Origin: Fidelibacterota bacterium
GTDB taxonomy: Bacteria > Fidelibacterota > Marinisomatia > Marinisomatales > SCKK01
Assembly: GCA_004124475.1 (NCBI GenBank)
Contig: SCKK01000005.1
Span: 1-64,000, forward strand
Length of the DNA stretch: 64,000 nucleotides
Reading direction: 5' to 3'
Made by a program: the position numbers and the translations under genes
Part shown: positions 1,271 through 28,400 of the stretch, in pieces
Layout: each line of letters begins with the position of its first letter
How positions within the stretch are numbered: position 1 is the stretch's first letter
Notes under the pieces: generated by a model
What the model saw: only the letters and a program-made list of their open reading frames with translations
What the model was told of the DNA's origin: nothing
Database searches by the model: none

Positions 1271-1671
1271 GGTATCCCACATTTTTTTAAATAGATTATA
1301 ATAGCTTCAATTGGAGACAGAATTAGACATTACGCACTCTAACCCCCACCTTTATGTTTAATTCAAGAGTTTTCTGATTCTTAGTTCAACTCATTCTCTT
1401 TTCAGGTTGTAGTACATTCCTTTTTCACTTTACCCTGTGGAATAGGGTTCCCTTTGGGAATTCCACAGGGCGAACACAAACTTTAAGCTACCCACTAAAA
1501 TAAATACAAAATAAAATGCCTGCCAAACCTGAGTAAGCTCAATGTACAAGGAAATCCTCCTTCCTTGTACTTTTCATAAGTTCCTCTTGAATGACCTTTA
1601 CAAGATACTGGAAAACGAGAAAAAATAAATGTCTTCCTTGCTTTCCTTCCTTCGTTCGTTGTCCTTATCTA
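1271..1671. other. Convergent intergenic region with two perfect inverted repeats
   Basis: The region lies between convergent genes. It holds an inverted repeat with 11-bp arms (CCCTGTGGAAT / ATTCCACAGGG, 1433-1470) and a second hairpin with 10-bp arms (1544-1570). Around 1630-1660 there is a low-complexity CTTCC/GTTC stretch. No coding potential is evident. Confidence 0.6.
1544..1574 (+). terminator. Hairpin with short T-run, possible terminator
   Basis: GTACAAGGAA and TTCCTTGTAC form a perfect 10-bp stem with a 7-nt loop, followed by CTTTT on the plus strand. It lies 274 bp after the nearest plus-strand gene, so its use as that gene's terminator is uncertain. It could equally be a mobile or REP-like palindrome. 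Confidence 0.35.
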
Positions 1672-2424
1672 TTAAACACCAAACCAAAGTATAATGGCAA
1701 ATAAAATAATAGTTACAGTTACCACTTTTTTCACCCACTTATGACCTTTTAGGGTTGTCAGTCTCACTCCTACCTGACCACCTATAAATGTACCGACACC
1801 TAAAATTAATCCAAGAGTCCAATTAACCATTCCCTTACTTGCAAAAATGCTCAGAGATAAAATCGTGAAAACCAAAACGCAACCTACTTTTACAGCATTT
1901 CCTTTAACCAAATCAAGACCCAAAAAGCTGGTAGCAGTCAGAATTAAAAAACCGACACCAGCTTGAACAAAACCACCATAGATACCCACCATAAAAAAAC
2001 CAAGTGTCAATCCAATCACCGAGGACATGGAATCATTTTTATGCAACGAAGTTTCTTTGGCGCTCGTTTTTAACAGAGTCCAAAGAGAAATCACGATCAT
2101 TAAAAAAGCGAGGATTCTTCGAAATGCATCATCTCCGACTTCCAATGCTCCCCAAGTCCCCAGAGCAGCTCCCATGGTTGCGGGGATAGCGGTCCACAAT
2201 GCTAATCTCCATTCTAACACTTTGTGACGCTGAAAACCCCAAACCGCACCAAAATTTTGAATAACAATACCGACACGATTTGTGCCATTAGCAACTGTAG
2301 GAGGTAAACCGAGGAAAATTAGTATAGGTAATGTCAAAAAGGATCCACCGCCGGCAACTACATTTATTACTCCGGCAATCAATCCCACTGCAAATAAAAT
2401 TAATAAGGCGTAATCCCCTATCAT
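1672..2424 (-). CDS. TauE/SafE (TSUP) family membrane permease
   Basis: This is a 250-residue integral membrane protein with about seven to eight hydrophobic helices. The N-terminal stretch carries the glycine-rich motif GVINVVAGGGSFLTLP. A second half (around residues 135-175) repeats the pattern with GGFVQAGVGF. Both are hallmarks of the TauE/SafE (TSUP, DUF81) family, which moves sulfur-containing or organic anions across the inner membrane. The specific substrate cannot be read from sequence. Length is typical for the family. It lies downstream of rplS on the same strand (81-bp gap), but nothing ties its function to translation. Confidence 0.85.
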   Translation of the reverse strand: MIGDYALLILFAVGLIAGVINVVAGGGSFLTLPILIFLGLPPTVANGTNRVGIVIQNFGAVWGFQRHKVLEWRLALWTAIPATMGAALGTWGALEVGDDAFRRILAFLMIVISLWTLLKTSAKETSLHKNDSMSSVIGLTLGFFMVGIYGGFVQAGVGFLILTATSFLGLDLVKGNAVKVGCVLVFTILSLSIFASKGMVNWTLGLILGVGTFIGGQVGVRLTTLKGHKWVKKVVTVTIILFAIILWFGV

Positions 2425-2505
2425 ACTATTGATAGAATCACGTGGCTGAATAATGTAATTGTCTGATTTTTCTGATGTACCAGAAAAAGTTAAAGTTCGT
2501 AGATA

Positions 2506-2847
2506 TTATCGTCTCTCTTTAATCCTGGCGGCTTTCCCTCTCAATTTTCTTAAATAATATATTTTTGCTCTACGGACTTTCCCTTTACGGATAACATCGA
2601 TGCTTTCAATACTGGGTGAGTGAAGGGGAAAAATCCTTTCCACACCAATTCCGGAAGAAATCTTCCTCACTGTAAATGTTGAATTTATTCCAGTTCCTTT
2701 TCTGGAAAGAACCACCCCTTCAAATCGTTGTATTCGCTGTCTATCGCCTTCGACAACTTTCACATTTACTTTAACAGTATCCCCAGCTCGAAAATCCGGT
2801 ATATCTTTCCGCAAATACTCCTGAGTTAAATCTTGTGCTTCAATCAT
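2506..2847 (-). CDS. rplS: 50S ribosomal protein L19
   Basis: The 113-residue protein has standard L19 features: the N-terminal [13 protein letters not shown], the conserved [19 protein letters not shown] segment, the [10 protein letters not shown] motif and a basic C terminus with [18 protein letters not shown]19 sits at the interface of the 30S and 50S subunits. Its start overlaps the end of trmD by 8 bp, so the two are probably translationally coupled. It is the last gene of the ffh-rpsP-khpA-trmD-rplS group. Confidence 0.97.
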
Positions 2848-3571
2848 GACTGTTTTCCCCTATTTTCGATATTTCTTTTTCATACGCTTCCCATATATCC
2901 GGGCGCCTAAGCTGCGTTCTTTTTTCTCTTTGTTTGTTCCGCCAGGCTTCAATTTTTGCATGGTGTCCACTTAAAAGTATTTCCGGAACTTTCATTCCCC
3001 TTAATTCCGCAGGTCTCGTATAATGCGGATGATCCAACAGTTTATGTGAAAAGGAATCTGTGGTTGCCGATTTATGATCCCCCAATACTCCGGGAATCAG
3101 GCGAACAGAAGCATCTAAAATCATCATTGTGGGTAATTCACCATTTGTTAATATAAAATCACCTATGGATATTTCATCCGTCACTAAATATTTCCTTACA
3201 CGCTCATCTATACCTTTGTAGTGCCCACAGATAAATATGAGACCCCCACATTCAGACAGTTCCCAGGCTTTTTCTTGCGTAAAAGGTTCACCCTGTGGTG
3301 AAGGGAAAATTGTTCTCAGCTCCCCTTTTCCCTCGTAAACAGACTTCACATTATCCACGGCTTTAAAGATAGGTTCTGGCATCATCACCATTCCAGTTCC
3401 ACCACCAAATGGATAATCGTCCACCTGCTTGAATTTCCCACGAGCATAGTTACGAAGATCCAAAATATGGTATTTCACCAACCCCTTATTGGCTGCCCGA
3501 TTGAGTATACTCGTGGAGACGATAGCTTCTACCATCTCTGGGAAGGGTGTAATAATGAAAATTTGATTCAT
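2840..3571 (-). CDS. trmD: tRNA (guanine-N1-)-methyltransferase TrmD
   Basis: This 243-residue SPOUT-class enzyme transfers a methyl group from SAM to N1 of G37 in tRNAs, preventing +1 frameshifting. Family motifs seen are the N-terminal IITPFPEM, the [12 protein letters not shown] loop, [15 protein letters not shown], and the SAM-binding knot region [14 protein letters not shown]. The C-terminal tRNA-binding helical domain includes [13 protein letters not shown]. Length is typical. It overlaps rplS by 8 bp and lies 93 bp downstream of khpA. The usual rimM gene is not present in that gap. Confidence 0.97.
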
Positions 3572-3664
3572 TACGCCTTTAATCCTCTGGACAGGAGTTG
3601 GGTAATAATGAATTTACCTGGTTCTGTAAGAAGCTAAACTAACCGATCCAGGGTCAATTTATCT

Positions 3665-3898
3665 TTACTCTACTATTTCAAGGAGAGCTCTTTTCCCTCC
3701 CTCCTTGGCGCTGATGGCTGACATTATTGTCCGGATTGCCTGGGCTGTTCTGCCGTGTTTTCCTATGACCTTACCCAAATCACCATCGCCAACCCTCAGT
3801 TCGTATATGATAGTTCTTTCACTCTCTACTGGGCTTATACTTACTTCATCAGGTTTATCTACAAGCTCTTTTACTATACGTTCTAAGAATTCTTTCAT
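3665..3898 (-). CDS. khpA: KH-domain RNA-binding protein (KhpA/YlqC family)
   Basis: The start is taken at ATG 3898, preceded by AGGAGG at proper spacing; an upstream in-frame GTG at 3907 lies just after this site. The 77-residue protein is almost entirely one KH domain, with the diagnostic GKVIGKHGRTAQAIRTIM helix-turn-helix motif. KhpA proteins bind RNA broadly and are linked to ribosome assembly and cell-size control in other bacteria. Its place between rpsP and trmD is the standard gene order. Confidence 0.93.
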   Translation of the reverse strand: MKEFLERIVKELVDKPDEVSISPVESERTIIYELRVGDGDLGKVIGKHGRTAQAIRTIMSAISAKEGGKRALLEIVE

Positions 3899-4082
3899 GT
3901 TTACCACCTCCTACTTATGCTTTAACCAGGCTATCTTCCATATTGAATTCATATCCCATATTAGCATATTACAGTACCATATGGAACAACTTACTTGTTA
4001 GAAGATTCCTCTTCATTCTCATCATCGGCTGAGTCATCATCCATATTCTCATTTTCATCAGTATGACCTTTCTCACCAGCAT

Positions 4083-4940
4083 TTAAACTGCTCTGTTCAT
4101 TTTCTTCTTTTGTCTCTTTTTAACTACTTTCGAGTCACCCTTGTTTTTATCTGGAGTTGTATCATTTAATTCATCGGTAGATTCAACTTCGGTCACATCC
4201 TCCACATTTGCCTTTGCTTCTTCATCTGATTCCATTTCGTGTTCACCTTCATGAACTTTAGATTTCTTGTCTTGTTCATCCTCAAATTTATCTAACTCCT
4301 TCTTTTCCACAGCCTCCGAAACTTCCTTACTTGGTTCAGTATCCTCAACTACCTCAGGTTCCACCTCTTTCTTAGGCTTTTCTGCCGATTTGCTTTCTAC
4401 ACCCTCAGATTCATCATCGTTTTCTTCGGAAACTTTTTCTGAGTCAACTACGGGCTCTTTCAATTCTTCATCAGAATCCAGCTCGGTTGTCACCGTCTTT
4501 GCTTCAATTTGTTTCTCTGCTACTACAGTTTCAGAAAGATCTGCTTCTGATATAGCTTGTGTTTTCACTGATTCTTCTGCCAACTTCAGTTTTTCAGATT
4601 CCTTTTGTTTTTCGCGCTCTTCTCTGTCTAATAACCACTTCTGAAGCTCAAGATCTATCGTATGTTCATCAAGCCCCTGGCGAATCATGTGCCATTTGTA
4701 TGCCAGACCAGCCTTCTTCAGCAGGTTCTTTACAGTGAACGTAGGTTGGGCGCCTAGCTCAAGCCAGTGAATTATTCGATCCTCTTTAAGAGAAAAATTT
4801 TTCTTATTTTTTATTGGGTCATACCAGCCCACTTCTTCTATTGGGGCGCCGTCACGCCTTTTTCTCGAATCTATAACGACCACCCTGAAAAATGGTCTAT
4901 TCCTTCTTCCAATCCGTTTCAGTCTGATTTTCGTTGCCAC
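4083..4940 (-). CDS. rpsP: 30S ribosomal protein S16 with long acidic C-terminal extension
   Basis: Residues 1 to about 85 are a normal S16: IRLKRIGRRNRPFFRVVVID, EEVGWYDP, and the GAQPTFTVKNLLKKAG motif. The remaining roughly 195 residues are a low-complexity tail rich in Glu, Lys, Ser, Val and Asp, predicted disordered. S16 of many bacteria is only 80-90 residues; FCB-group members often carry tails, but this one is unusually long and acidic. The annotated frame ends in a basic stretch (KKRQKKKMNRAV) after an A5 run at 4117-4121. A one-base slip there would continue an acidic tail (KETKEENEQSS...) to a TAA at 3991-3993. Either the gene is recently frameshifted, the base count is wrong, or slippage occurs. 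Confidence 0.93.
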   Translation of the reverse strand: MATKIRLKRIGRRNRPFFRVVVIDSRKRRDGAPIEEVGWYDPIKNKKNFSLKEDRIIHWLELGAQPTFTVKNLLKKAGLAYKWHMIRQGLDEHTIDLELQKWLLDREEREKQKESEKLKLAEESVKTQAISEADLSETVVAEKQIEAKTVTTELDSDEELKEPVVDSEKVSEENDDESEGVESKSAEKPKKEVEPEVVEDTEPSKEVSEAVEKKELDKFEDEQDKKSKVHEGEHEMESDEEAKANVEDVTEVESTDELNDTTPDKNKGDSKVVKKRQKKKMNRAV

Positions 4941-4950
4941 TTATTACTCC

Positions 4951-6282
4951 TTAGTTTATCATTCTAAAATAGCGATTCATCATACGATTATTTTTATTAA
5001 TCTTCGATACATTTTTCATCATCATTTTCAATTGGTTGTACTGCTTTAATAATGAATTTACCTCCTGCACAGATCGTCCACTCCCCATTGCTATCCGTTT
5101 TCTTCTACTCCCATTAATTATCCCTGGGTTTTGTCGTTCCTGATGTGTCATAGAATTGATAATAGCTTCTGTCCAAATTAACTGATTATCATCCATTACC
5201 AACCCCCTTGTTATTTGCTTCATGCCCGGTATTAAGCTCATAACCTCTTCCATAGATCCCAATTTTCTCATCTGTTTTAATTGGTCTTGAAAATCCTCAA
5301 GAGTGAATTCCTGTTTTCTCAGTTTCTCTGTTATTCTAAGGGATTGCTCCTTATCCAATAAACTCTCGGCTTTTTCCACCAACGTTACTATGTCACCCAT
5401 TCCAAGAATTCGGCTCGCCATCCTATCAGGATGGAACAACTCCAATCCACCAATTTTTTCACTGGTACCAATAAATTTGATTGGTTTTTTTGTAATAGCG
5501 GTGAGTGAAACCGCTGCTCCGCCTCTGGCATCACCATCCATCTTTGTAAGAATAATTCCAGTAATATCCAAGGCTGAGGAAAACACAGATGCGGAATTAA
5601 CAGCATCTTGACCCGTCATTCCGTCCACCACGAATAAAATCTCCTGAGGTTTGGTCATTTCAGAAATTTGCACGATTTCTTCCATCATCTCGCCATCCAC
5701 ATGGAGACGTCCTGCAGTGTCCAATATGACTGCATCACATTTTGTAGATTCCGCTTCATCAATTCCATTCAAACAGATTTTTACAGGATCGTTGTATTCT
5801 TCCACCCAAACCGGTATATCAATCTGCTCTCCAAATTTTACCAACTGTTCTACAGCCGCAGGACGGTAAATATCCGCTGCAACCATTAACATCTTTTTCC
5901 CCTGAGCCCTAAGATAATAAGCTAATTTAGCAGCGGTTGTAGTTTTCCCGGAACCTTGAAGTCCCGCTAATAAAATTATTGTGGGGGGCTTGGACACAAA
6001 TTGAATTTTTTCTGTCTGTTTTCCCAGAAGATCCGTCAATTCATTATGTATTATCTTAATAAATTGCTGTCCTGGTGTTACCGATCTTAAAACAGGGGAA
6101 CCCTTGGCGTTTTCAATCACAGAATTAACAAAATCTCTCGCCACTTTATAATTGACATCTGCTTCCAACAAAGCGCGACGGATTTCCCGACCGGTATCGG
6201 TGATGTTTTTCTCCGTAATTTTCCCCAAACCACGAAGTTGGCGAAATATTAAATTGAACCTATCTTGCAATTGTTCGAACAT
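4951..6282 (-). CDS. ffh: Signal recognition particle GTPase Ffh (SRP54)
   Basis: The 443-residue protein has the full N-G-M layout. The N domain is a four-helix bundle (1-90). The G domain has P-loop GLQGSGKTTTAAKLA near residue 107, DTAGRLHVD, TKMDGDARGGAAVS and the GTSEKIGGLELF closing motif. The methionine-rich M domain includes the signal-sequence-binding finger loop and the MGSGRSVQEVN helix that contacts 4.5S RNA. It targets membrane proteins co-translationally to FtsY/SecYEG. The tail ends in many Met and Asn residues. It is the first gene of the rpsP-khpA-trmD-rplS operon, 10 bp upstream of rpsP. Confidence 0.97.
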   Translation of the reverse strand: MFEQLQDRFNLIFRQLRGLGKITEKNITDTGREIRRALLEADVNYKVARDFVNSVIENAKGSPVLRSVTPGQQFIKIIHNELTDLLGKQTEKIQFVSKPPTIILLAGLQGSGKTTTAAKLAYYLRAQGKKMLMVAADIYRPAAVEQLVKFGEQIDIPVWVEEYNDPVKICLNGIDEAESTKCDAVILDTAGRLHVDGEMMEEIVQISEMTKPQEILFVVDGMTGQDAVNSASVFSSALDITGIILTKMDGDARGGAAVSLTAITKKPIKFIGTSEKIGGLELFHPDRMASRILGMGDIVTLVEKAESLLDKEQSLRITEKLRKQEFTLEDFQDQLKQMRKLGSMEEVMSLIPGMKQITRGLVMDDNQLIWTEAIINSMTHQERQNPGIINGSRRKRIAMGSGRSVQEVNSLLKQYNQLKMMMKNVSKINKNNRMMNRYFRMIN

Positions 6283-6462
6283 AGTCTTATTTACATTTAT
6301 TTTAGCGGAGAAATTTAGCAGGGAAACTAAAAGATTTGCAAAAGATATTTATACGAGAAATTATTAGGTTAATAATGCCAATTTATAGAGCACTAATAGA
6401 TAACATATAATACCTATCGAAGTCCTCCCTACTTCCTTTTCATCTCCTCACACACTAATTCT

Positions 6463-8721
6463 TTACAATCCAGCAATCAGATTCAATGCCGATCCAGCTT
6501 TAAACCAATCTATTTGAGATGAAGAGTATGTATGATTCAATTGTGTTGTCGTATTAAAACCATCAGAGTTACTGACGACCAATTCCAATGGATGACCAGG
6601 CGTAAAATCTTTCAGCCCTCGAATGGAAATCCGACTGTCTTCTTTAATCAAGTTGTAATCATCGGGATTAGAGAAAGTCAGGGCTAAAATTCCCTGCTTT
6701 TTTAGATTCGTCTCATGTATTCTGGCAAAACTTTTTACGATGATTGCCACACACCCGAGGTGCCGAGGTTCCATGGCAGCATGTTCTCGGCTGGACCCTT
6801 CACCATAATTCTCGTCCCCAAACACAACCCAACTGTGCCCTCTAGATTGATATTCCCTCGCAATGATGTTGTATCGAATCCCATGTTCTCCTGTAAAAAT
6901 ATTAGTCCCTACACCAATTTCGTCTGTAAAAGCATTTACTGCACCAATAAAAAGGTTATTCGAAATATTATCAATATGTCCCCTAAAACGGAGCCATGGA
7001 CCAGCGGGAGAAATATGGTCGGTAGTACATTTCCCTTTGGCTTTCATTAATACCGGAAAATCTTCCAAATTCTTCCCATTCCAAGCTGGAAATGGCTTCA
7101 AAAGTTGTATTCGCTCACTTTTCGGTGAAACTTTTACCACAATTTTTGACTTATCTTCCGGCGGAGATACAAATCCATCCTTACCTGTTTCGAATCCATT
7201 AGCAGGTAATTCATCTCCTACCGGCGCTTTCAACTTGACCAATTTTCCTTCCTCGTTTGGTAAAAAATCACTTACAGGATTATACGATAAGCGTCCGCCA
7301 AACGCCATAGCAGTGACGATTTCCGGTGAGCCCATAAAAGCAAGTGTGGAAGCATTCCCGTCATTTCTTCTGGCAAAGTTCCGGTTGAAGGAGGTTACGA
7401 TAGTATTTTTCTTCCCCTCTGTCTTATCCAGTCGCTTCCATTGACCTATGCAAGGTCCACAGGCATTTGCCAAAACCAACCCTCCCACATCCGTTAAATC
7501 CTTGAGTTGTCCATCCCTTTCAATTGTTGCTCTTACCTGTTCCGAGCCTGGAGTTACCAATAAGGGTATTTTTGTTTTTAACCCCAGTGCCTTCGCCTGT
7601 CTTGCCACGTGTGCGGACCGTTCTATATCCTCATAAGAAGAATTTGTACAACTTCCAATCAAAGCTACGCTTATTTCATCGGGGTAGCTTTCTTTCTCAA
7701 CTGCTGCAGCCATTTCTGAAATTGGTCTTGCCAGGTCCGGTGTATAAGGTCCAACCAAATGAGGATCCAACTCAGAAAGGTTGATTTCTATAATCTCATC
7801 GTAAAAATCCTCCGGATTCTGAAGTACTTCCGGATCAGCAACCAGATTATCAGCCACTGATTCCGCCAATTCTGCTACTTTCTCCCTGCCCGTAGCTTTA
7901 AGATAAGCTGACATCCTGTGATCGAAAGGAAATATAGAAGTGGTAGCGCCCAATTCAGCACCCATATTTGTAATCGTCCCCTTTCCCGTACAGCTTATGG
8001 ATTCTGTCCCTTCACCAAAATATTCTACGATTTTTCCTGTTCCACCTTTCACCGTAAGAATTCCAGCTAATTTTAATATGACGTCCTTTGGAGCAGTCCA
8101 TCCGGAGAGAGAACCTGTAAGTTTAACTCCAATTAATCCAGGCCAGGATAGATTCCACGGTATACCGATCATGACATCTACAGCATCCGCCCCACCGACG
8201 CCTATGGCAAGCATCCCCAGCCCACCTCCGTTTGGAGTATGTGAATCTGTTCCGATCATCATTCCACCCGGGAATGCATACTGTTCCAAAACAACTTGAT
8301 GAATAATTCCCGACCCGGGTTTCCAAAAGCCAATACCATACTTTTGGCAAACGGTCAGCAGAAAATTATAAATCTCGCTGTTCTCAGATTTCGCATGGTT
8401 CAGATCATCCTCAGCACCCACTTCCGCCCTGATAAGGTGATCACAATGGACAGTTGTAGGTACGGCGGTATACTCTCTCCCAGCCATCATGAATTGAAGG
8501 AGCGCCATCTGGGCAGTTGCATCTTGCATAGCAACACGATCCGGCTTAAAATTCACATAAGATTTGAAAGGGACTGGAGGTTTCTCCAACTTATCAAAGA
8601 GATGCACATATAATATTTTTTCTGCAAATGTGAGAGGACGTCCCATCAGTTTTCTGCCAGATTCCACCTTACGAGAAAAATCCGAATAAAATTTAAAAAT
8701 TATTTCTTTATCCCTTAACAT
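6463..8721 (-). CDS. acnA: Aconitate hydratase (mitochondrial-type)
   Basis: This 752-residue aconitase converts citrate to isocitrate in the TCA cycle using a [4Fe-4S] cluster. Cluster cysteines are visible in [10 protein letters not shown] (near residue 355) and [10 protein letters not shown] (near 421). Other family motifs are [19 protein letters not shown] and, in the swivel domain, [17 protein letters not shown] near residue 645. The length and the [10 protein letters not shown]-terminal motif match the eukaryotic mitochondrial-like subgroup rather than the longer AcnA/IRP1 or AcnB forms, so the symbol acnA is approximate. It is transcribed alone, separated from ffh by 180 bp and divergent from porU. 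Confidence 0.93.
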
Positions 8722-9029: not shown

Positions 9030-12000
9030 ATGCTTTACTCCTTAAAAAATAATATCATTTTCCTATTCATTACTGTCTTTTGCATTACACTTTTTGGACA
9101 GGATTGGGATGTAGTTGTAAACGACCAAAATTCAATAACCCTGTCACTTAAATTTCCACCCTTTTACAGTACGGAAGAACTTGAAGAAATAACTTTTTCC
9201 ATGGGAATTCCTACTCGCTCTTTCCCTCCGCTACAAATTCAATTATTGGAAACAGAATTAATAGATGCTTCACTAATAAAATCTGTCAAATTTGACCCAC
9301 CGGGGAATCCGGTAAATTGGATCTCTTTGGACCAATTTCGGGATCTGCAAATTGGAACAATAAAAATATCTCCTATTTATAAAGATGGGCAACAACATTC
9401 TTTAATTAAAAAAATCCGAGTTACGATCCATTTTCCCGAAGGTAAGTCAGTTCCTGTTAAAATTGGAAAGGCAGAAAACAGCCTGTACAGAAACCGGGTG
9501 ATCAACTGGGAAATTGCTAAAAACTGGGTTTCAAAACCTGTTCGGTGGGAAAGAAAAGCAGTTCTGACTCTCCCCGATGGTGACTGGTACCGAATTGTCA
9601 TTACATCTGATGGAATATATCGATTCACCTATGAAGATCTCACGTCTGCCGGCATAAACATGAACACTTTAGATCCTAAAACAGTCACACTTTATACCCA
9701 TCCCAGCGGTGGAAGGCCCATGCCCTCAACCGTTGGAATAGACATTCCTGAAAATCTCGTAGAAGTAGCGATGGAAATTACTGGAGATGAAGATGACACT
9801 TTTAACGAAGAAGATGAAATTATTTTTTATGGTCGAGGACCACGGGGATTCGACCCACTGGGTAGTTCCAATGTCTCTTTTACACAAAATCCATATACCA
9901 ATATAAATTATTATTGGCTTTTAATTCCAACAGACCCCAACACTGTGGGTGAACGAATAAACATAAACGGAATCGAATATTTTAATCCTGAACTCCTTGA
10001 TTTTGGACTCGATTTTGTTCATCACGAGGTTGATCTGGAAAATCCGTATCAGACAGGATTATTCTGGGTAGGCGCAGGCATCACCCGTAATCAATCAATT
10101 TCCATCGCATTCAATCTTCATCACCCAAAAAGTAATATTGAAGCAAAGATAAATATGACTCTGTTTGGTGGAACCACAAGTTCTACTGATTCTCAACCCC
10201 GGCATAAAATAAAAATATATCAAGGAAGTGTGAATGATACATTATTAGTTTCCCAATCGTGGTCGGGATTATCTGTAAAAGATTTTACAAAAAACCTTAA
10301 AACATCGCTTTTAGTCAATGGACCGAATTTCATTATATTTCAAAATAACAGTAATAATGAATCCTCAAAAATTTTCCTGGATCGGAATACAGTGAAATAT
10401 GGACGCAAACTTGTCTGGGAAGGGTCTCCTTTTGAATTTTGGGCACCCCCTTATATGCCAGATGCTCGATTTGAAATTTCTAATAGTGATATAGACCTAA
10501 AAGTGTGGGATATCTCAGACTTTATTCATCCCATAGAAATTCCTACTGAATATAGTGAATCAGGAGGCTTAACTCATTTTGAGACATCATTATCAGATAT
10601 TGAGCTAAAACGATTTATCATATTTACTCCCGAAAGTATTTCCGACTCCCCATCTATTGAGCATAGATCGGGGCAAAAATTTAACAGTTTGAGAAAAGAA
10701 ATATATCCTATTGATCATATTATCGTTTCTCCGGAAGAATTTTTGACGCCCGCTGGAAAACTCCAAAATCATCGAACCAATTCGATTGTGGCTTCCCTAC
10801 AAGCTATATACGACGAATTCTCTGGCGGGGTTGTTGATCCTCTTGCCATCAGATATTTTCTAAAGTGGACGAAAGAAAATTGGCGAACACCGGGTGAAGA
10901 ATCATTTCCAAGTTTCGTATTGTTACTTGGGGATGGAGACTACGACTACCGGAATATCACAGGGAATTCTCAAATGCGTGTTCCAACATATCAATTATCA
11001 ACGAGAAACATCTCCTCTTCTGACGATAGATTTACATTTTTTGATGGGCAGACTCCGGAAATGGCAATAGGGCGTTTTACCGCCGTTACTCTGTCACATG
11101 CAGAAAATATGATTGATAAAACCATCGCCTATGAAAAAAATCCTGAAATGGGTCTCTGGCGTAGAAAGGTAACCTTAATTGCAGACGATTTTAGAAGACC
11201 ATTTTTTAGCAGTATAGAATTATCACACACAACCAATAGTGAAGAAATATACATGAGGATACCACGATCTATTGATGTTGGAAAAATTTATATGGAAGAT
11301 TTTCCCATTGTGAATGACGGGTCTCAATATGGTGTAAAAAAACCCGATGCCACTGAAGCTCTTTTCAATGTTCTCGAGCAAGGGACAGTTTTGTTGAACT
11401 ACATCGGTCATGGATCACCCTATCAATGGGCACAAGAAGGTCTTCTTTCTTCTACCCGGGGAGATTTAGCCAATATTAACTCAGGCATGAAAATTCCGAT
11501 CTGGGTCGCTGCGACCTGTAGTTGGGGACATTACGACTTAGTTGAAGGAAGTGCAATGTCCGAAGAATTACTGAGACTCCCCTTCAATGGGGCCATTGCG
11601 GTAATCTCTACCAATGATGTCATCACATTTTCTGCAAATAAATCTTTTATTCTCAAACTATTCTCGAGTTTTTTCCCCAATGGACAAGTGACTACAGATC
11701 CAATCGGAGCTGTTTTTCAATCCATAAAAACAAGTGATTCCGCCAGTCGTTTATTTCATCTCTTTGGAGACCCTGGTTTGAAGCTAGCTCTTCCCGCCAA
11801 TACGGCTGTTGTAGATACAGTTTCACCTGACACATTAAAAGCCTTAACTACAGGATCTTACACGGGTAAAACCGTAAATGCCGGTAAATTGAATGGGGAT
11901 GGATATATTATCCTTTATGATGCGGATAGAACCATCACACAGACAGGTTATTCACAAGAGGTTACTCATATTTTGACAGGTAATACTCTTTTCCGTGGAT

Positions 12001-12827
12001 TTGTAAATCTATCCGAGGGGAAATATGAAGGAAATTTTATCATTCCTAAAGATATTAATTTTTCAACTTCGGATGGACGGATAGCTGTCTATCTCTACGG
12101 AGATTCCGGTAATGGTTTGTGGGAAGGACTCGGTGTGAAAGAAGGATTGATTCTTGCTGGGGGTACCACAAATACTCAAGATAATAAGGGACCTGTGATC
12201 ACCTTTATGCTGGAAGATAGAATGTTACAATGGGGAGACCACATTCCTGAAAACAGTGAACTCACCCTGAGATTATCCGATCCTTTGGGTATTAATGTCA
12301 CCAGTGAAGTAGGTCATGCCATACGATTATGGATAGATGAAGATGAAACAAATGCTACTGATTTAACCCATCTCTTTGTCTACGACGCTCAAAGTTATAA
12401 AACCGGAACGATTTCTCTATCCATGGATAACATTTCATCAGGAGAGACGATCCTCACCGTCGAAGGGTGGGACAACGCCAATAATCCATCCCGGACAACT
12501 ATCGCACTTAACTTAACAACTTCTGATGATCTCCAGTTAAAAAACGTTTTTAACTACCCCAACCCATTTAGCAAGAAAACTCAATTCGGATTTGAAGTTA
12601 CACAGGAGGCCCAAGTGACTATTAAAATCTTTACAATTGCCGGTCAACTTGTATCCGAACTAAGACCTATGGAATCATATTTAGGCTATTCTCATATCAA
12701 TTGGGATGGACGTGATGATTTTGGTGATCTCATTGCCAATGGAGTTTACCTTTATCAGATTAAGGCTGAATCCGTCGAGACAGGGAAAAAAGTCACTAAG
12801 ATCCAGAAACTTGCAAAATATAGGTGA
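9030..12827 (+). CDS. porU: Type IX secretion system sortase PorU (gingipain-type C25 peptidase)
   Basis: The 1265-residue protein has an N-terminal signal peptide (cleavage near FGQ, residue 25) and a beta-rich N-terminal region. A gingipain-like C25 domain spans about residues 555-920, and a C-terminal sorting/FlgD-like domain from about 1170 begins NVFNYPNPFSKKTQFGF. The catalytic dyad is visible: His in NYIGHGSPYQW near 793 and Cys in AATCSWGHYD near 829. The motifs LLLGDGDYDYRN and HLFGDPGLKL are typical. PorU removes the C-terminal signal of type IX cargo at the cell surface and joins the cargo to lipopolysaccharide. It lies immediately before maf and the dcw cluster. Several cargo proteins are encoded from 45 kb onward. 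Confidence 0.9.
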   Translation: MLYSLKNNIIFLFITVFCITLFGQDWDVVVNDQNSITLSLKFPPFYSTEELEEITFSMGIPTRSFPPLQIQLLETELIDASLIKSVKFDPPGNPVNWISLDQFRDLQIGTIKISPIYKDGQQHSLIKKIRVTIHFPEGKSVPVKIGKAENSLYRNRVINWEIAKNWVSKPVRWERKAVLTLPDGDWYRIVITSDGIYRFTYEDLTSAGINMNTLDPKTVTLYTHPSGGRPMPSTVGIDIPENLVEVAMEITGDEDDTFNEEDEIIFYGRGPRGFDPLGSSNVSFTQNPYTNINYYWLLIPTDPNTVGERININGIEYFNPELLDFGLDFVHHEVDLENPYQTGLFWVGAGITRNQSISIAFNLHHPKSNIEAKINMTLFGGTTSSTDSQPRHKIKIYQGSVNDTLLVSQSWSGLSVKDFTKNLKTSLLVNGPNFIIFQNNSNNESSKIFLDRNTVKYGRKLVWEGSPFEFWAPPYMPDARFEISNSDIDLKVWDISDFIHPIEIPTEYSESGGLTHFETSLSDIELKRFIIFTPESISDSPSIEHRSGQKFNSLRKEIYPIDHIIVSPEEFLTPAGKLQNHRTNSIVASLQAIYDEFSGGVVDPLAIRYFLKWTKENWRTPGEESFPSFVLLLGDGDYDYRNITGNSQMRVPTYQLSTRNISSSDDRFTFFDGQTPEMAIGRFTAVTLSHAENMIDKTIAYEKNPEMGLWRRKVTLIADDFRRPFFSSIELSHTTNSEEIYMRIPRSIDVGKIYMEDFPIVNDGSQYGVKKPDATEALFNVLEQGTVLLNYIGHGSPYQWAQEGLLSSTRGDLANINSGMKIPIWVAATCSWGHYDLVEGSAMSEELLRLPFNGAIAVISTNDVITFSANKSFILKLFSSFFPNGQVTTDPIGAVFQSIKTSDSASRLFHLFGDPGLKLALPANTAVVDTVSPDTLKALTTGSYTGKTVNAGKLNGDGYIILYDADRTITQTGYSQEVTHILTGNTLFRGFVNLSEGKYEGNFIIPKDINFSTSDGRIAVYLYGDSGNGLWEGLGVKEGLILAGGTTNTQDNKGPVITFMLEDRMLQWGDHIPENSELTLRLSDPLGINVTSEVGHAIRLWIDEDETNATDLTHLFVYDAQSYKTGTISLSMDNISSGETILTVEGWDNANNPSRTTIALNLTTSDDLQLKNVFNYPNPFSKKTQFGFEVTQEAQVTIKIFTIAGQLVSELRPMESYLGYSHINWDGRDDFGDLIANGVYLYQIKAESVETGKKVTKIQKLAKYR

Positions 12828-12833
12828 TACACT

Positions 12834-13454
12834 TTGGACCCCGTATTTATACTTGCTTCCAAATCACCTCGTCGTAAAATGCTATTAGAAAAACTGAAGA
12901 TTCCATTTCGAGTTGTCCCCAGTAACATTCAGGAAGATTATAATGACAACAAGACTCCCGAAGAGACCGTTCAATTTATTTCCTATAAAAAAGCCAAATT
13001 TGTTGCAGAAAATTATCCAAAGAACGCTGTGATTGGCACTGACACAATTGTCGTTTTAAGAGATGAAATACTAGGTAAACCAAAAGATAACCGTGACGCT
13101 ATAAAAATGCTTACCAAACTTTCCGGAAGGTCACATACGGTTTATACAGGTGTTTCTATTGTAAGAAAGGATCCCCAAGCCTTTCAGAAATTCTACGAAA
13201 AGACAGAAGTAACATTTTTCCCTCTATCAACAAATACGGTCGAATTTTATGTAAATAACTATCATACTTTGGATAAAGCAGGGGCTTATGGAATACAAGA
13301 CTGGTCAGCCTGTTTTGTCGAATCCATCCAAGGGTGTTACTATAATGTGGTCGGATTTCCATTAGCCCGGTTTTTTCATATAATCAATACAGACAGTTTT
13401 AGAAAAACATTCGGAATTTACAATTGGCTTGGAAAGGAAGAACAGAGTCCTTAA
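12834..13454 (+). CDS. maf: Maf-like nucleoside triphosphate pyrophosphatase
   Basis: The 206-residue protein starts at TTG 12834, 6 bp after porU. It shows the Maf/HAM1-superfamily signature ILASKSPRRKMLLEKL at the N terminus, then VIGTDTIVVL and LGKPKDNRDAIKML, and GAYGIQDWSACFVESIQGCYYNVVGFPL at the C terminus (read in parts). Maf enzymes hydrolyse non-canonical or modified nucleotides such as dTTP/UTP or m7GTP and can affect septum formation. The C-terminal motif is of the YhdE (dTTP/UTP) type. Its position just before the division cluster fits a house-cleaning role tied to cell division. Confidence 0.93.
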   Translation: MDPVFILASKSPRRKMLLEKLKIPFRVVPSNIQEDYNDNKTPEETVQFISYKKAKFVAENYPKNAVIGTDTIVVLRDEILGKPKDNRDAIKMLTKLSGRSHTVYTGVSIVRKDPQAFQKFYEKTEVTFFPLSTNTVEFYVNNYHTLDKAGAYGIQDWSACFVESIQGCYYNVVGFPLARFFHIINTDSFRKTFGIYNWLGKEEQSP

Positions 13455-13481
13455 AATTCCTATCTTTGTAGAGGAAAAAAC

Positions 13482-14303
13482 GTGCCCACAACGACATTTC
13501 ACGAAGAATTAAAACAACTTAGAACTCAACAAAAAATTGAGCTGTCCGAAATTTCAAACAGGACAAAGATCAATATTAAATTTTTAGAGGCGATTGAATC
13601 CGGTGATTTCTCATTTCTACCTCATGTTTATGTAAGGTTATTTCTTCGGGCATACGTAGTGGAAATCGGAGCAGATCCAGACAACGCCTTGAATCAATAC
13701 GAACTCTTTTTATCTAATTCGGGAGAAAAACTGCCTGAACGGTTAGAAATCGATACTAAGGAATTACTTGAAATTCCCCTGCCGGAACAAGACGATGAGG
13801 AAGAGTTACCTCAAAAAACACCTTTCCAATCGAGGACAGATTGGATAAAAGCCGGACTGCTTGTAGGATTACTTTTATTTGCCATTTTTATCATTCAGAA
13901 AATTACAACAAATCAGGAAACTATATCCCATAGCGAAATCACTCTTATTCCGATACAAACCCCGATCACAGACAAATTTTTATTTCTCGATTACTCAAGT
14001 GATAAAAGAACAGAAACACTTGAAGTTAATTATCCTTACCAATTTTCTCTCAAAGCATCTTCGCCGGTCTGGTACCAATATATATTAGACCAATCTCCTC
14101 CCACATCGTCAGATCTTGTAAAGGGAGGAGAAATTATCATGGACTTCGAGTCTGCGATGAAGCTTCGGTTGAACCATACGCAGAATGTAGATTTTCAAAT
14201 CAATGGACAACCAGTTTCTCTAACGTCCAGCAACTTTCCTATTGACCTCGCCTTTGATTCCGGCACAGGGCAGGTCAACATCATACAATACTCACCCAAA
14301 TAA
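13482..14303 (+). CDS. RodZ-like helix-turn-helix membrane protein
   Basis: The 273-residue protein starts at GTG 13482 after a GAGGA site. Residues 1-75 are an XRE-type helix-turn-helix of the RodZ kind (LKQLRTQQKIELSEISNRT, YVRLFLRAY). A single membrane helix lies at about 125-145 (IKAGLLVGLLLFAIFIIQKI). The periplasmic part ends in a DUF4115-like beta domain. In other bacteria RodZ links MreB to the envelope and sets rod shape. Its place directly upstream of mraZ supports a shape or division role, but no mreB is in the window. Confidence 0.82.
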   Translation: MPTTTFHEELKQLRTQQKIELSEISNRTKINIKFLEAIESGDFSFLPHVYVRLFLRAYVVEIGADPDNALNQYELFLSNSGEKLPERLEIDTKELLEIPLPEQDDEEELPQKTPFQSRTDWIKAGLLVGLLLFAIFIIQKITTNQETISHSEITLIPIQTPITDKFLFLDYSSDKRTETLEVNYPYQFSLKASSPVWYQYILDQSPPTSSDLVKGGEIIMDFESAMKLRLNHTQNVDFQINGQPVSLTSSNFPIDLAFDSGTGQVNIIQYSPK

Positions 14304-14327
14304 ATTAGCGATATACGTTTTTGATTA

Positions 14328-14351
14328 GAGTGTCTTAGCACACTCATTTTT
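14328..14351 (+). terminator. Intrinsic terminator after the rodZ-like gene
   Basis: GAGTGT (14328-14333) and ACACTC (14340-14345) form a 6-bp stem with a 6-nt loop, followed by ATTTTT. It lies 25 bp past the rodZ-like stop codon and before the mraZ promoter. It probably separates the porU-maf-rodZ unit from the dcw cluster. Confidence 0.6.
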
Positions 14352-14412
14352 GTCCTAAACAGACTTACCCTCTTTTTTTCTTAAAAATCCCAACATTAAA
14401 TTCCAATTTTCC

Positions 14413-14457
14413 TTGACTTTTGTGGGTTAGTGAGTTAATGTTGTGGGTAGTAGTGGG
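14413..14457 (+). promoter_or_regulatory. dcw promoter with MraZ-box-like GTGGG repeats
   Basis: A TTGACT (14413-14418) and TTAATG (14435-14440) pair spaced by 16 bp is a plausible promoter. Overlapping it are GTGGG at 14422, 14443 and 14453, plus a weaker GTGAG at 14430. MraZ represses its own operon by binding a small set of G-rich direct repeats spaced about 10 bp in other bacteria. The 10-bp spacing of the last two copies fits. Inferred, not proven. Confidence 0.55.
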
Positions 14458-14483
14458 GAATAATCCCAACTTTTTTTCCAAAC

Positions 14484-14945
14484 ATGGTATCAGAAAACAC
14501 ATTCACAGGGGAATATTCTTATTCCATAGATGACAAAGGACGGGTCAATATACCCGCTAAATTTCGGTCAGCTCTATCACCCGATAACGAAAATATTTTT
14601 GTCATTACACGTGGTTTTGATCCTTGTGTTGTAGCCTACCCGCTCGTTGAATGGCAGAAAGTGGAAGATGGATTGAGAAACCTCTCTTCAGCCACAAAAG
14701 TATATAGGGCTTTTATCAGGTCAACTGTACGATATGCCACTTCTGTGAATTATGACAAACAGGGTCGAATTCAAATCACCCCTATCTTAAGGGAATGGGC
14801 TGGTTTAGAGAAAGATGTACTGATTATTGGAATGGTAAACAAAATTGAAATTTGGAATCCTGTTAAGCTCGAAGAGTTCGAAAAAACTTCAGGAGAAATC
14901 GAACCGGAAAAATTTGAAGACTTAGCAGATAAAATTATTCTTTAG
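14484..14945 (+). CDS. mraZ: Transcriptional regulator / division cluster protein MraZ
   Basis: The 153-residue protein contains two SpoVT-AbrB-like MraZ halves. The first has FTGEYSYSIDDKGRVNIPAKFR, read in two pieces around the DKGR turn. The second repeats the pattern as VNYDKQGRIQITPILREWAG. MraZ forms a ring that binds DNA and represses the dcw operon. It is the first gene of the cluster, with GTGGG repeats just upstream. No clear Shine-Dalgarno sequence precedes ATG 14484. rsmH follows after 3 bp. Confidence 0.95.
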   Translation: MVSENTFTGEYSYSIDDKGRVNIPAKFRSALSPDNENIFVITRGFDPCVVAYPLVEWQKVEDGLRNLSSATKVYRAFIRSTVRYATSVNYDKQGRIQITPILREWAGLEKDVLIIGMVNKIEIWNPVKLEEFEKTSGEIEPEKFEDLADKIIL

Positions 14946-14948
14946 GAT

Positions 14949-15914
14949 TTGAAGAAAAATTGGCAGCAACAAAACATATATCATTCACCTGTATTATTGT
15001 CAGAAGTAATACACTTTTTGAATATAACAAAGGAAGGTACCTACCTCGACGGGACAATCGGACCTGGCGGTCATGCCAGGGCAATCCTCTCCAGGCTTTC
15101 TTCAGAGGGGATCTTTTTCGGGCTTGATAGAGATGAGGAGGCAATTCGTTTTTGCAAATCTACTTTGCCTGCCTCCTCGATCTGTCATCTCATTTGTGAT
15201 ACATACCATAACTTTCCATTATACCTTGCAAAATATAAGATAAAAGCTGTAGACGGTATGTTTTTAGACCTTGGACTATCATCTCTCCAATTAGATTCGC
15301 CAAATAGAGGATTTTCTTATCGAACTGACGGACCACTAGATATGCGATTTGGAACCGATATTAAAATCACGGCTCGAACTATTATCAATGAATGGGACAA
15401 AACAGATCTAAAAAAAATATTTCAAAATTATGGTGAAGAAAGATACTCCGGACGAATTGCTACTGCCATTGTGAAAATTAGAAAAAACAGACAGGTTCAA
15501 ACTACTAGTGATTTGAAAGAAATAATTTCAACTGCCATTCCCAAAATAAAAATAACAAAAACACTCTCAAGAATATTCCAGGCTCTCCGCCTAACAGTAA
15601 ATCGAGAACTGGAATCATTAGAATTATTCTTAGATACATTTATCGAATTCCTAAAACCTGGTGGTAGTATTGTGGTAATTTCCTATCACTCTCTTGAGGA
15701 TAGACAGGTTAAACAAAAATTTAAGGAATTGGAAAGGGGTTGCGTCTGTCCACCGACAATTCCTATTTGTCAATGTGGGAAAAAACCTTCTTTGAAAATT
15801 CTAAATAAAAAACCTGTAATACCGACACAAGACGAAATCACCCGGAACAAAAGAGCCCGGAGTGCAAAACTACGAGCTGGTGAGAAAATATCACAATGGG
15901 AAGAACCAAAATAA
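14949..15914 (+). CDS. rsmH: 16S rRNA (cytosine(1402)-N4)-methyltransferase RsmH
   Basis: The 321-residue protein starts at TTG 14949. SAM-binding motifs include HSPVLLSEVI, YLDGTIGPGGHA, GLDRDEEAIRF and DGMFLDLGLSSLQLD. The NRGFSYRTDGPLDMRF motif, the FQALRLTVNRELESL helix and the C-terminal VISYHSLEDRQVKQKF are diagnostic. It methylates N4 of C1402 in the ribosomal P site. It overlaps ftsL by 19 bp, the usual tight arrangement. Confidence 0.97.
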   Translation: MKKNWQQQNIYHSPVLLSEVIHFLNITKEGTYLDGTIGPGGHARAILSRLSSEGIFFGLDRDEEAIRFCKSTLPASSICHLICDTYHNFPLYLAKYKIKAVDGMFLDLGLSSLQLDSPNRGFSYRTDGPLDMRFGTDIKITARTIINEWDKTDLKKIFQNYGEERYSGRIATAIVKIRKNRQVQTTSDLKEIISTAIPKIKITKTLSRIFQALRLTVNRELESLELFLDTFIEFLKPGGSIVVISYHSLEDRQVKQKFKELERGCVCPPTIPICQCGKKPSLKILNKKPVIPTQDEITRNKRARSAKLRAGEKISQWEEPK

Positions 15915-16240
15915 AGCGTAAACGCAAATCAAGAAAACAACAGGAATTTGTCAATTCACTTTTGTTTTTTGTGGTAACTCTTCTCTCGATTTCAAGTTTA
16001 CTGACATATTTGTGGGTTTACAACGAAGTCAATATTACGGACAGGGAAATCAGCGGATTAAAAAGAATCCAAGATAACATTGCGGTTGAAAATCGTGAAA
16101 TTAGAAGCAAAATCGGGAGATTGAGCCGCATAGATAGAATTACAGAGATTGCTCGGAAAGAATTGCAGATGGTTACTCCTGAGCCGGAATCGTTGGTTGT
16201 TTTTGTGGATAAGGAGATTCTCCGTAGAAGAACTAAATAG
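15896..16240 (+). CDS. ftsL: FtsL-like septum protein
   Basis: The 114-residue bitopic membrane protein has a very basic cytoplasmic start (KIKRKRKSRKQQ) and one membrane helix at about 20-40 (LLFFVVTLLSISSLLTYLWV). A periplasmic leucine/isoleucine-heptad coiled coil (48-90) ends in RIDRITEIARKELQM, the typical FtsL/DivIC signature. It recruits FtsI/FtsW with FtsB to the divisome. Sequence conservation in this family is poor, so the call rests on layout and on its position between rsmH and ftsI. Confidence 0.85.
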   Translation: MGRTKIKRKRKSRKQQEFVNSLLFFVVTLLSISSLLTYLWVYNEVNITDREISGLKRIQDNIAVENREIRSKIGRLSRIDRITEIARKELQMVTPEPESLVVFVDKEILRRRTK

Positions 16241-16241
16241 C

Positions 16242-18239
16242 ATGACAAAATCCTTCACTAAATTTCGGCCCAGAATTTTATTTATATCAAGTATCGTAAT
16301 CCTGTTATGGTCCGGTTTGACCATGAGGTTCTTTTACATTCAAGTTATAAGAAGCGCTGATCTCCGTGAAATGGGGTTAAAGCAGGGTCAGAATAAAGTT
16401 ATTCTTCCTTCGGTTCGTGGGTCTATAAAAGATCGAAATTTTAAATCCTTTGCAGAGAATGTCATTCATTATTCTTTTGGGATAAATCCAAATTTGGTCG
16501 AAAACGAACAGATAATTCTCGATGCAATTGTAAAAATTACCGGGAAGTCGAGAGAATATTATCATTCTAAATTCTCCAGTACTCGGTCTTTTGAATTTCT
16601 TGAGAGAAATTTGAAGAACAGCATCAGTAATTCTTTACTTGCCATAAAAGATAATGGGTTTGTTATCAATAAGCATGGTTACAGGATCTACCCTCAAGAA
16701 AGAGTAGGTTCTCAGATAATTGGCTTTACCGATGTGGACAACAATGGTTTGTCGGGGATTGAACTTGAATTGGACAAACACCTTAAAGGACGGGATGGAT
16801 GGATAATTTTACAAACAGATGGAAGAGGACGATCCAGGCAAAATTCCGGAAACCCGAGACAAAGCCCGGTTGATGGAAGCACTGTAATTCTTACGATCGA
16901 CATCGAATATCAATCGATTCTAAGAGATGAAATATCAAATCGGGTGGAAAAAACCGGGGCGATTGGAGGAATGGGGATTATCATAGAACCCTTCTCAGGT
17001 AAAATCCTCGCCATGACATCCTCGCCCGATTTTGATCCGAATAATCGACATTTATACAAAACGGTGGCATATAGGAATCGCGTCATCACAGACCAGTTTG
17101 AACCAGGTTCAACTTTTAAAATTGTTCCAGCGGTGGCTGCCTTAACATTGAACTGTGTCAGCCTTAACGAAGAATTTAATTGCGGATTTGGGCAGTATAA
17201 CTTTCGTGGTCATGTTTTCAATGATTGGAAGGAATTCGGATTATTAACATTTCCTCAAATCATTGAAAACTCCAGTAATGTGGGTATTATTAAAATTGCT
17301 GAAGCGGTTGGGGCCAATAAACTACACCAATTTGTTCGGAAATTTGGATTCGGCTCTTTAACCGGGATCCAAATTTCAGGTGAATCTAAAGGTGTAAGTA
17401 AATCTGTCTCAGAATGGAGTGCAATTACTCTCGCTGAAATCTCTCTTGGTCACGAGGTGTCCGTAACTACACTTCAATTAGCCTATGCATATGGTGCAAT
17501 TGCCAACGGTGGATTTTTAATGAAACCGTTGTTAGTAGAAGAAATTATTCATCCATCCGGACGTAATATTTACAAATGTTCCCCTCAAATTGTTCGACAA
17601 ATTGCTCCTAAGAAAGTCATGGATGAAATGTCCAAAATGTTGGTCCGTGTGGTAAACACCGGTACGGGAACTTGGGCAAAAATAAAAGGCTGGAATGTAG
17701 CGGGGAAAACCGGAACCGCACAGAAATTTATCGACGGAGAATATTCGAAAACCCTATTCATTGCCTCTTTTGCAGGTTTTTTCCCCGCCCATAACCCGCA
17801 ATTGGTTGGCGTCATTATTCTTGAGGAACCCAAGATTGGTTATCATTGGGGAAGTATAGGAGCTGCACCCGTTTTCAAAAATGTAATGAAAAGAATAATA
17901 CAAATGGATGATGGGATTTTGGTTTACAAACCCAAATTGGGCAAAGAGAAAATTGCGGATGATCTCCATCCATCCACATTCGTTGCTCTTAACGAAATTG
18001 ATCTAGAAGAAAAGACCCCCGTCTTGATGACCTCAGTATATGTAGACAACAGTATTTCATCAGAAAATTCAGTCGTTGTCCCAAATGTCAGGGGAATGAG
18101 CATGCGTAAAGCTATAATGGTTATAAGAAATGCCGGTTTAAGACCAAAAATCTCAGGATCAGGCGCCGTTAGATATCAAAACCCCGGACCGGGAACAGTG
18201 ACTGATTTATACTCGTTTTGTATATTGGAGTTAAAATAA
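16242..18239 (+). CDS. ftsI: Peptidoglycan transpeptidase FtsI (class B PBP) with PASTA domain
   Basis: The start is set at ATG 16242, one base after the ftsL stop; an open frame extends upstream into ftsL but lacks support. The 665-residue protein has one N-terminal membrane helix and a PBP dimerisation domain. The transpeptidase domain has SxxK in GSTFKI (near 288), SSN (near 343) and KTGT (near 489). A C-terminal PASTA domain (about 611-665, [18 protein letters not shown]) follows. It cross-links septal peptidoglycan with FtsW. The PASTA domain is like that of Spo0VD/PBP2x and several FCB-group FtsI proteins. The stop overlaps murE by one base. Confidence 0.95.
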
Positions 18240-19702
18240 TGGAAAGGTTAAATGAACTATTGAATGGCGTAGATGTCCTCTCCCGAAAGCCTTACGATGT
18301 TCCTGTACAGACCGTCTGTATAGATTCAAGACATGTTTGGCCTGGTACTATTTTTGTGGCAATACCCGGATTCAAACAAAATGGTACCGAATTTATTTCT
18401 GATGCCGTCAACAAAGGCGCGGCAGTCATCGTTTCAAATGGAATTGGAAAAAGGGGTAAACCATCAATCAAAACACCCTTTATTAGGGTACGGAATCCCA
18501 GAAAAGCCGTGTCTCGAATGGCGGCAAATTTGTTTCAACATCCATCCAAACAGCTAACCGTTATCGGAATTACAGGCACCAATGGAAAGACTACCACAGC
18601 GCTGCTGTTATATTCAATCCTGAAAACCTACGGAATCAATACAGGAGTCATCGGTACCCTTGGCGCTATGGCTCAGGGTATGGAGGCAAATACCTCCCTG
18701 ACCACTCCCGATAGTATTGAACTGCAAAGATTATTGAGATTGTTTGTCGAAGGCGGAGTCACACATGTCGTTATGGAAGTTTCTTCTCATGCTTTGGAAC
18801 TTAATCGGGTAGCAGATGTGGATTTTGATATGGCTATCTTTACCAACCTCAGCCAGGATCACCTCGACTTTCATAAATCGATGGACAATTATTTTAAGGC
18901 AAAAGCAAAACTGTTTTCCCTGCTTCATTCCGATGGTGTGGCAATTCTCAATTTTGATGATGACAGGTATGATTCCCTGAAACCAATAATTTCTGCAAAG
19001 ACTTTCTCATACTCCACAAAAGGTGGCGCTGATTTTGGATATCAGAAATGGGGAATGTCCATTTCCGGTATAACAGGTATCATAACTCTGGGGAAAGAAA
19101 CGGTCCAAATAAACTCCCCATTAATTGGTATTCACAATCTGGAAAATATATTATCGGCTGTATCTGCTGCCAGAGCCATGGAAATTCCCATCAATGCGAT
19201 AGAAAATGGAATTGCCCAATGTGATAATGTACCGGGCCGTGTTGAAAAATTTAAAACAAACAATGGCGCTACTGTGATTATTGATTATGCCCATACACCG
19301 GATGCTTATGAAAAACTGTTCTTATCTTTAAGATCATTAATGTTAAAAAACAGGCGTCTCTATATTATTTTCGGATGTGGGGGTGAAAGAGACCGTGATA
19401 AAAGACACCTCATGGCAAAAGTTGCAGAAACATATGCCGACAAAATCTATGTGACACCGGATAATCCCAGGACTGAATCTGTAGATGATATAAATAACGA
19501 TATCATAAAAGGGTTTTCAAAAAATATTCACACGATTTATTCAAACAGAAGAGAAGCAATTCATAAAGCAGTATCCAAATTGGAGCCAAACGATATTTTA
19601 GCAGTGGTTGGAAAAGGAAGAGTCAATTACCAAATCATTGGAACGGAAAAAATCCCCCATTCCGATATTGATACTGTCTTAAACGCATTAAATGAGATCT
19701 AA
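18239..19702 (+). CDS. murE: UDP-MurNAc-tripeptide synthetase MurE (meso-DAP type)
   Basis: ATG 18239 overlaps the ftsI stop (TAATG) and is preceded by TTGGAG; an upstream TTG at 18218 is less likely. The 487-residue Mur ligase has the N-terminal substrate domain ([19 protein letters not shown]), ATP-binding [14 protein letters not shown] near 112, and the C-terminal domain. The motif DNPR near residue 407 marks enzymes adding meso-diaminopimelate rather than lysine. This predicts DAP-type, Gram-negative-like peptidoglycan. Confidence 0.97.
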
Positions 19703-19838
19703 ATTAAGCGATTCTGCCTATACCATCGACAATAATGTTCGCGCTAACTGGGTTAGTGTGCCTCAACACGAATTGTGAACAACTTACGAACACAAATAGG
19801 CTGTTTGTGTTACCCCGAAACTTTGGGGCTTAATTTAG
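19703..19838. repeat. Palindrome-rich spacer between murE and murF
   Basis: This is the only sizeable gap inside the mur genes. It contains AACACAAA/TTTGTGTT arms around 19790-19811 and a CCCCGAAACTTTGGGG palindrome at 19813-19828. The latter belongs to a dispersed family with core CCCGAANNTTCGGG also found at 28293, 31905 and 43968. It looks like an inserted repeat element and not a promoter. Confidence 0.55.
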
Positions 19839-27305: not shown

Positions 27306-27306
27306 T

Positions 27307-28227: not shown

Positions 28228-28292
28228 GGATATTTCAATGAGACTGGAACGAAAAAACTATTTAGTGTTTGAACAAAAAGTATTTCTCAATT

Positions 28293-28306: not shown

Positions 28307-28400
28307 GTTCGAGTTCATAAGGATAATTTTTATCATCCACTGTTTTCGTTCAGGCTATATAAACACGGATTTCCACAGATTCATTCTAAGAAATTAAAAA

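Follow-up and report, generated by a model that had tools for sequence, protein, structure and literature searches.

A long acidic tail on ribosomal protein S16 in a Neomarinimicrobiota genome and the displaced reading frame at its end

At this locus the gene for ribosomal protein S16, rpsP, encodes a long acidic C-terminal tail whose annotated frame turns basic shortly before its stop codon, while the -1 frame stays open and acidic for another 42 codons. The arrangement raises the questions of which frame originally belonged to the tail, how the two came apart, and whether the change matters to an essential ribosomal protein. The answer that we consider probable is that an ordinary bS16 carries here the two-part extension usual in Neomarinimicrobiota, and that its tail end, being weakly constrained, lost the frame through separate, ordinary indels.

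The rpsP locus and its two reading frames

The window is the whole stretch of DNA that was analysed, 64,000 nucleotides in length. It was compared with one sister species at 95% DNA identity, two genomes of the genus having been found in total. The features used below are as follows.

4083-4940, minus strand: rpsP, GTG start, 285 aa
4704-4940, minus strand: conserved S16 core of rpsP, aa 1-79 (TIGR00002 over aa 4-79, E 4.6e-32; dN/dS against the sister 0.10; pLDDT block means 81-96)
4530-4703, minus strand: proximal extension, aa 80-137, predicted helical (helices 79-87 and 92-137; pLDDT remains high up to about aa 130; motif in relatives; alignment to 9i5v_c)
4086-4529, minus strand: distal acidic tail in the annotated frame, aa 138-285, predicted disordered (pLDDT block means 44-58; composition)
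4083-4085, minus strand: stop codon TAA of the annotated rpsP frame
3994-4119, minus strand: presumed ancestral acidic tail end, 42 codons in the -1 frame (translation; codon statistics and shuffles)
3991-3993, minus strand: presumed ancestral stop codon TAA (end of the -1 frame; rpsP-khpA gap)
4107/4108, minus strand: 1-nt length difference, the window being one base shorter than the sister (ACAAAA here, A7 in the sister; pairwise DNA alignment)
4059/4060, minus strand: 5-nt length difference, the sister being longer, with a segment that resembles the dispersed palindrome TCCCGAAGTTTCGGGA without CG
3665-3898, minus strand: khpA-like KH-domain gene downstream of rpsP (NF001748, E 5.3e-25; NF002201, 85.8 bits against a cut-off of 85)
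43967-43982: palindrome TCCCGAANNTTCGGGA, with a related form at 28293 and no evident T run

The rpsP product is the sole PF00886 match in the genome by profile search (91.2 bits against a cut-off of 27) and scores 109.9 bits with TIGR00002, for which the curated cut-off is 45.3. The gene lies between ffh and the khpA-like gene, followed by trmD and rplS, and is a single-copy S16 in the ffh-rpsP-trmD-rplS neighbourhood. The host genome belongs to Candidatus Neomarinimicrobiota, the nearest named record being MAG B71T3L11 (JADFPG010000012.1), with 94% identity over the S16 query. No Rfam element was found in the window at the gathering score, and a scan of 3600-5100 gave no promoter or terminator at the slip on the rpsP strand.

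We note that the khpA-trmD spacer (3572-3664) holds no rimM. RimM is a 30S maturation factor that is usually widespread. Neither PF01782 nor TIGR02273 gave a match over cut-off in the window's own genome, the sister or four further relatives (G019, G034, G044 and G015); PF01782 is present in 41 of 61 genomes and absent from all nine genomes of family f15. By these profiles the own genome and these relatives are without RimM, a loss of a 30S maturation factor. A tie between this loss and the length of the S16 tail, judged by eye, was not adopted.

The initial annotation had described an A5 run at 4117-4121 followed by a basic annotated end and an acidic -1 frame down to 3991, and the sequence bears this out. 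Beyond 4122 the annotated frame is out of the acidic frame and reads KRQKKKMNRAV, with its stop at 4083; the -1 frame is open and acidic over its 42 codons (40% D/E), reading KETKEENEQSSLNAGEKGHTDENENMDDDSADDENEEESSNK up to the TAA at 3991-3993. Both frames are open where they overlap, at codons 274-285. The tail had been put at about 195 extra residues, close to the 206 that we count beyond S16 position 79.

The acidic frame is statistically part of the tail as far as 3991; near 4107 the annotated frame departs from it. When dinucleotide-preserving shuffles were made (n = 20,000), the -1 frame was open in 1.65% and both open and equally acidic in none. Scored with the codon statistics of the upstream tail, the acidic frame has a log-likelihood of +53 and +36 against the tail's two off-frames, and the annotated frame scores -34 and +8. 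The gap between rpsP and khpA is 184 nt, the longest in 38 loci (window and sister included; next longest 98, median 40), and it would be 92 nt if measured from 3991; because the gap is such an outlier, a former stop at 3991 appears likely. Relatives' S16 tails, in addition, mostly end in E, D or K. Codon statistics, relatives' tail ends and the rpsP-khpA gap taken together lend good support to the earlier proposal that the original tail used the acidic frame.

The tail in the phylum and in other bacteria

An S16 search of the own genome and 60 relatives gave a match in 54 of the 61 genomes, and a phylum search of 245 genomes a match in 194. From a subset of the matched loci we drew 85 distinct S16 sequences, 72 of them closed at a stop and 70 usable; L014 and L135 were left out for X residues, the frame flag of L014 being a masked N stretch. 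This comparison of tail length and frame, which the initial annotation had proposed, showed long tails that are mostly acidic; relatives with conserved basic ends that stop where the annotated frame does were not encountered. Beyond position 79 the closed tails measure 59-313 residues, 16 of the 70 being longer than the window's. Net charge is negative in 63 of 70 (64 of 70 when the first 35 residues are omitted), leaving seven that are not net negative, with a median of -20.5 and -28 for the window; these sequences are phylogenetically non-independent. The same scan supplied a contrast set of 61 other loci, mostly Firmicutes. In 55 of these the tail does not exceed 17 residues; in the remaining six (Bifidobacterium, Ancillula) it measures 72-108. 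By sequence comparison, a long acidic S16 tail is ordinary for the Neomarinimicrobiota lineage.

The tail has two parts. The proximal part is recognisably conserved, with a motif like YKWHxxxQGLDExxIxxExxKW in the order, and an AlphaFold model made with 28 sequences is highly confident up to about residue 130 and places helices at 79-87 and 92-137. From aa 131 on, pLDDT block means fall to 44-58, so that the residues beyond about 130 are predicted to be disordered, and this S16 has the feature of a long charged tail with predicted disorder. EEAPAEE repeats occur in other members of the order. Structural alignment of the model to Porphyromonas gingivalis bS16 (9i5v_c) covers model residues 2-138 and mainly 2-103 (Z 13.3, rmsd 5.3 Å, 117 aligned). 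In Bacteroidota bS16 (F. johnsoniae 7jil_u, P. gingivalis 9i5v_c) the phmmer alignment likewise extends beyond the core, across the helical segment, as far as aa 169-178. Those chains have 188-192 aa in sequence against 285 aa here, and the F. johnsoniae model, with 85 of 188 aa, lacks most of the tail.

The initial annotation had found a disordered acidic tail on an essential ribosomal protein striking in itself; the tail is real, but it is common in the phylum and of a kind already described. In the bacterial table of PMC6821194, S16 is the ribosomal annotation with the most A/E-rich low-complexity regions (186), and the parts of that paper drawn on here describe ribosomal low-complexity regions as mostly C-terminal, with a placement by the authors at the ribosome surface, and most S16 regions as exceeding 70% A+E. 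On the strength of those parts, in which Neomarinimicrobiota do not figure by name, a long low-complexity S16 tail is of a kind described for bacteria generally. The present tail differs from them in that A+E makes up 27% of its 206 residues and at most 45% of any 20-residue window, under the 70% exceeded by the usual tail of that type; E, K, V, D and S are prominent, and its end is out of frame. A title-level search of the literature found no title on Neomarinimicrobiota S16 tails.

A further precedent is Cutibacterium acnes bS16, whose C-terminal extension, according to the portion of PMC10085706 used here, binds uS4 where h17 is short and has a flexible end that is unresolved. The likeness lies in a C-terminal extension with a flexible end, and on what that portion describes it serves as a precedent for no more than the proximal part. 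The idea that the tail makes up for a short 16S h17 was rejected for the present case because, unlike the situation described for C. acnes, V3 spacing in the relatives here is not short: of 12 16S loci from relatives, 10 have a spacing of 172-179 nt, nine of them at 178-179, the flanking motifs not being found in the other two. This test is indirect in that it used relatives' 16S; no 16S match was found in the own genome's sequence. In E. coli the V3 spacing is about 177.

Comparison with the sister species

Positions 1633-6469 align with the sister at 95.4% identity. Of the four gaps, two fall in the S16 tail end (4060, 5 nt; 4108, 1 nt), and the others, at 6359 and 6371, in the spacer upstream of ffh. 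The initial annotation set the frame change at the A5 run, but that run is identical in the sister; the length difference lies at 4107/4108, beside the A4 run 4108-4111. With its extra base, about 10 nt beyond the A5 run, the sister reads EENKQSGLNTGEKG in the acidic frame for about 14 codons, leaves that frame at the 5-nt difference and ends MKMRMWMMTQPMMRMKRN...MVL, a Met-rich end that gives an S16 of 325 aa. The acidic end ENVDDDSADDENEEESSNK is still present in the sister's DNA, out of frame, and the two length differences sum to 6 nt. An intact acidic tail is found in neither species, and the two break at different places. Polarising both indels is beyond reach with two genomes of the genus, and both could lie on one branch.

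A second block, window 9040-28279 (19.25 kb), aligns at 95.5% identity, again with four gaps: a compensating 1-nt pair 16 nt apart within one ORF, 6 nt between genes, and 3 nt. The compensating pair falls in a short, strongly diverged stretch, 9970-9986, inside a 1265-aa ORF (9030-12827). Uncompensated frame-breaking indels number two, both in the 129-nt tail end; the remaining 23,050 nt of compared ORFs are free of them. If placed at random, both would fall in those 129 nt with a chance of about 3e-5, a flattering figure since the region was chosen for one of them.

The dN/dS value against the sister is 0.10 for the core and 0.65 for the tail, and 0.65 does not appear clearly different from the tail's off-frame values of 0.38 and 0.71; because of those values, tail residues would seem to be weakly constrained at most. 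The 165 tail codons carry 40 differences from the sister, with no stop and no indel. Within 3994-4059 there are two differences in 22 codons, of which, read in the acidic frame, one is synonymous and the other nonsynonymous, and the larger segment 3899-4056 has three differences. Such conservation could mean that the acidic end is still in use, a sign that we did not accept, as it is not unusual within the block (1,230 of 4,660 segments of equal size are as conserved). Against the sister, the rpsP-khpA spacer at 3899-3990 shows one change in 92 positions and the khpA-trmD spacer seven in 93. The former could hold a conserved leader of khpA, although other segments of the block are equally conserved.

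At the 5-nt difference the sister's segment, TCCAAGTTTCGGGA, equals TCCCGAAGTTTCGGGA minus CG. The palindrome TCCCGAANNTTCGGGA occurs in 72 exact copies here and 75 in the sister, with 0 for a reversed control pattern, and 21 of the 23 inspected (one in the window, the rest spread over 20 further stretches) lie outside ORFs of at least 100 aa. It is a candidate REP-like or RNA hairpin element. Positions 28263-28319, around one palindrome, match five other sister contigs at 68-89% identity, which would make the repeat unit longer, perhaps about 57 nt. At window position 19763 the sister has the palindrome GTCCCGAACCTTCGGGAC between genes and the window a shorter, unrelated GTGT...ACAC sequence. 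Read after the fact, the sister's break may be a palindrome element inserted in the rpsP tail end.

Accounts of the frame change and of the tail

An indel, one of the causes named at the outset, is supported by these comparisons; a sequencing artefact was another. A consensus or assembly error that dropped one base beside 4108-4111, leaving the true tail in frame to 3991, would fit a single-base difference in an A-rich run, and the true product would then be an S16 with a tail acidic throughout, about 316 residues long in all, its gene separated from khpA by 92 nt. We regard this as unlikely, though we leave it some weight: no other uncompensated frame-breaking ORF indel occurs in 19.25 kb plus 4.86 kb aligned at 95% (about 23 kb of ORF), the window's run is no longer than A4, and the sister's separate break is one of 5 nt with changed neighbouring bases, which is no matter of homopolymer count. 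Far less probable is that the basic annotated end is what selection maintains, the acidic -1 frame being an accident of purine-rich DNA. GAA/GAG runs read off-frame give K and R, so that basic and acidic frames do coincide, and a few relatives are basic-rich at the end, for example L129, whose tail ends KSKSTNKSK; yet no shuffle was as open and acidic, the codon statistics and the outlying rpsP-khpA gap point the other way, and the sister's end is Met-rich instead.

Programmed slippage, ribosomal or transcriptional, giving one basic-ended and one acidic-ended S16, had also been suggested, and the overlap of open frames at codons 274-285, the A5 and A4 runs here and an in-phase A7 run in the sister speak for it. 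The window's slip interval, however, has no in-phase canonical X XXY YYZ heptamer, and slippage on T AAA AAG would leave the P site mis-paired. The sister's A7 (codon 277) would send a -1 slip into a stop at 281, and its TTTAAAT (286) into one at 289; neither heptamer lies within the interval that leads to the acidic end. The RNA of 3895-4125 folds no better than shuffles (z -0.28, pseudoknots being outside the fold test), and the arrangement is not kept in the one sister genome. As far as consensus rules go, we reject programmed frameshifting for both genomes, and we give slippage of any kind very little credence: the sister lacks the same slip, and neither species has a canonical -1 heptamer into the acidic end. 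Equally improbable, in our estimate, is a switchable contingency site at which indels (A-run length, palindrome insertion) toggle acidic and basic or Met-rich ends to give ribosome surface variants in a population.

We thus favour ordinary indels in a weakly constrained tail end. The conserved proximal segment, aa 80 to about 137, is probably helical and would be followed by a fast-evolving, disordered acidic tail, in which separate small indels in the window and the sister would have broken the acidic frame. The breaks would be tolerated if little depends on the final 40 or so residues of such a tail. Such a view suggests that the tail end of an essential ribosomal protein is free to change. 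What remains of the tail might act through net charge and length, not sequence, either forming a flexible negative brush over the 30S surface or shielding the basic S16 core prior to assembly; this is a tentative proposal, made because net charge is kept without sequence conservation and because the tail is predicted to be disordered, and under it the loss of about 40 residues would therefore change little. With S16 tails of up to about 300 residues in Neomarinimicrobiota, the wider question is what such tails do on the ribosome. For annotation, a switch from acidic to basic near a gene end is to be expected from a one-base frame change in GAA-rich DNA and calls for caution.

Frame-broken tails number four among the 72 closed frames, namely the window, the sister, L049 and L095. 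In the latter two, tails with EEAPAEE-like repeats shift to K/L-rich ends, and the -1 frame spells an acidic stretch of about 104 residues in L049 and 48 in L095; by eye these breaks lie outside homopolymers, and an assembly fault is possible for both. The acidic continuation is in the same -1 phase in all four broken tails, for which the chance is 1 in 8.
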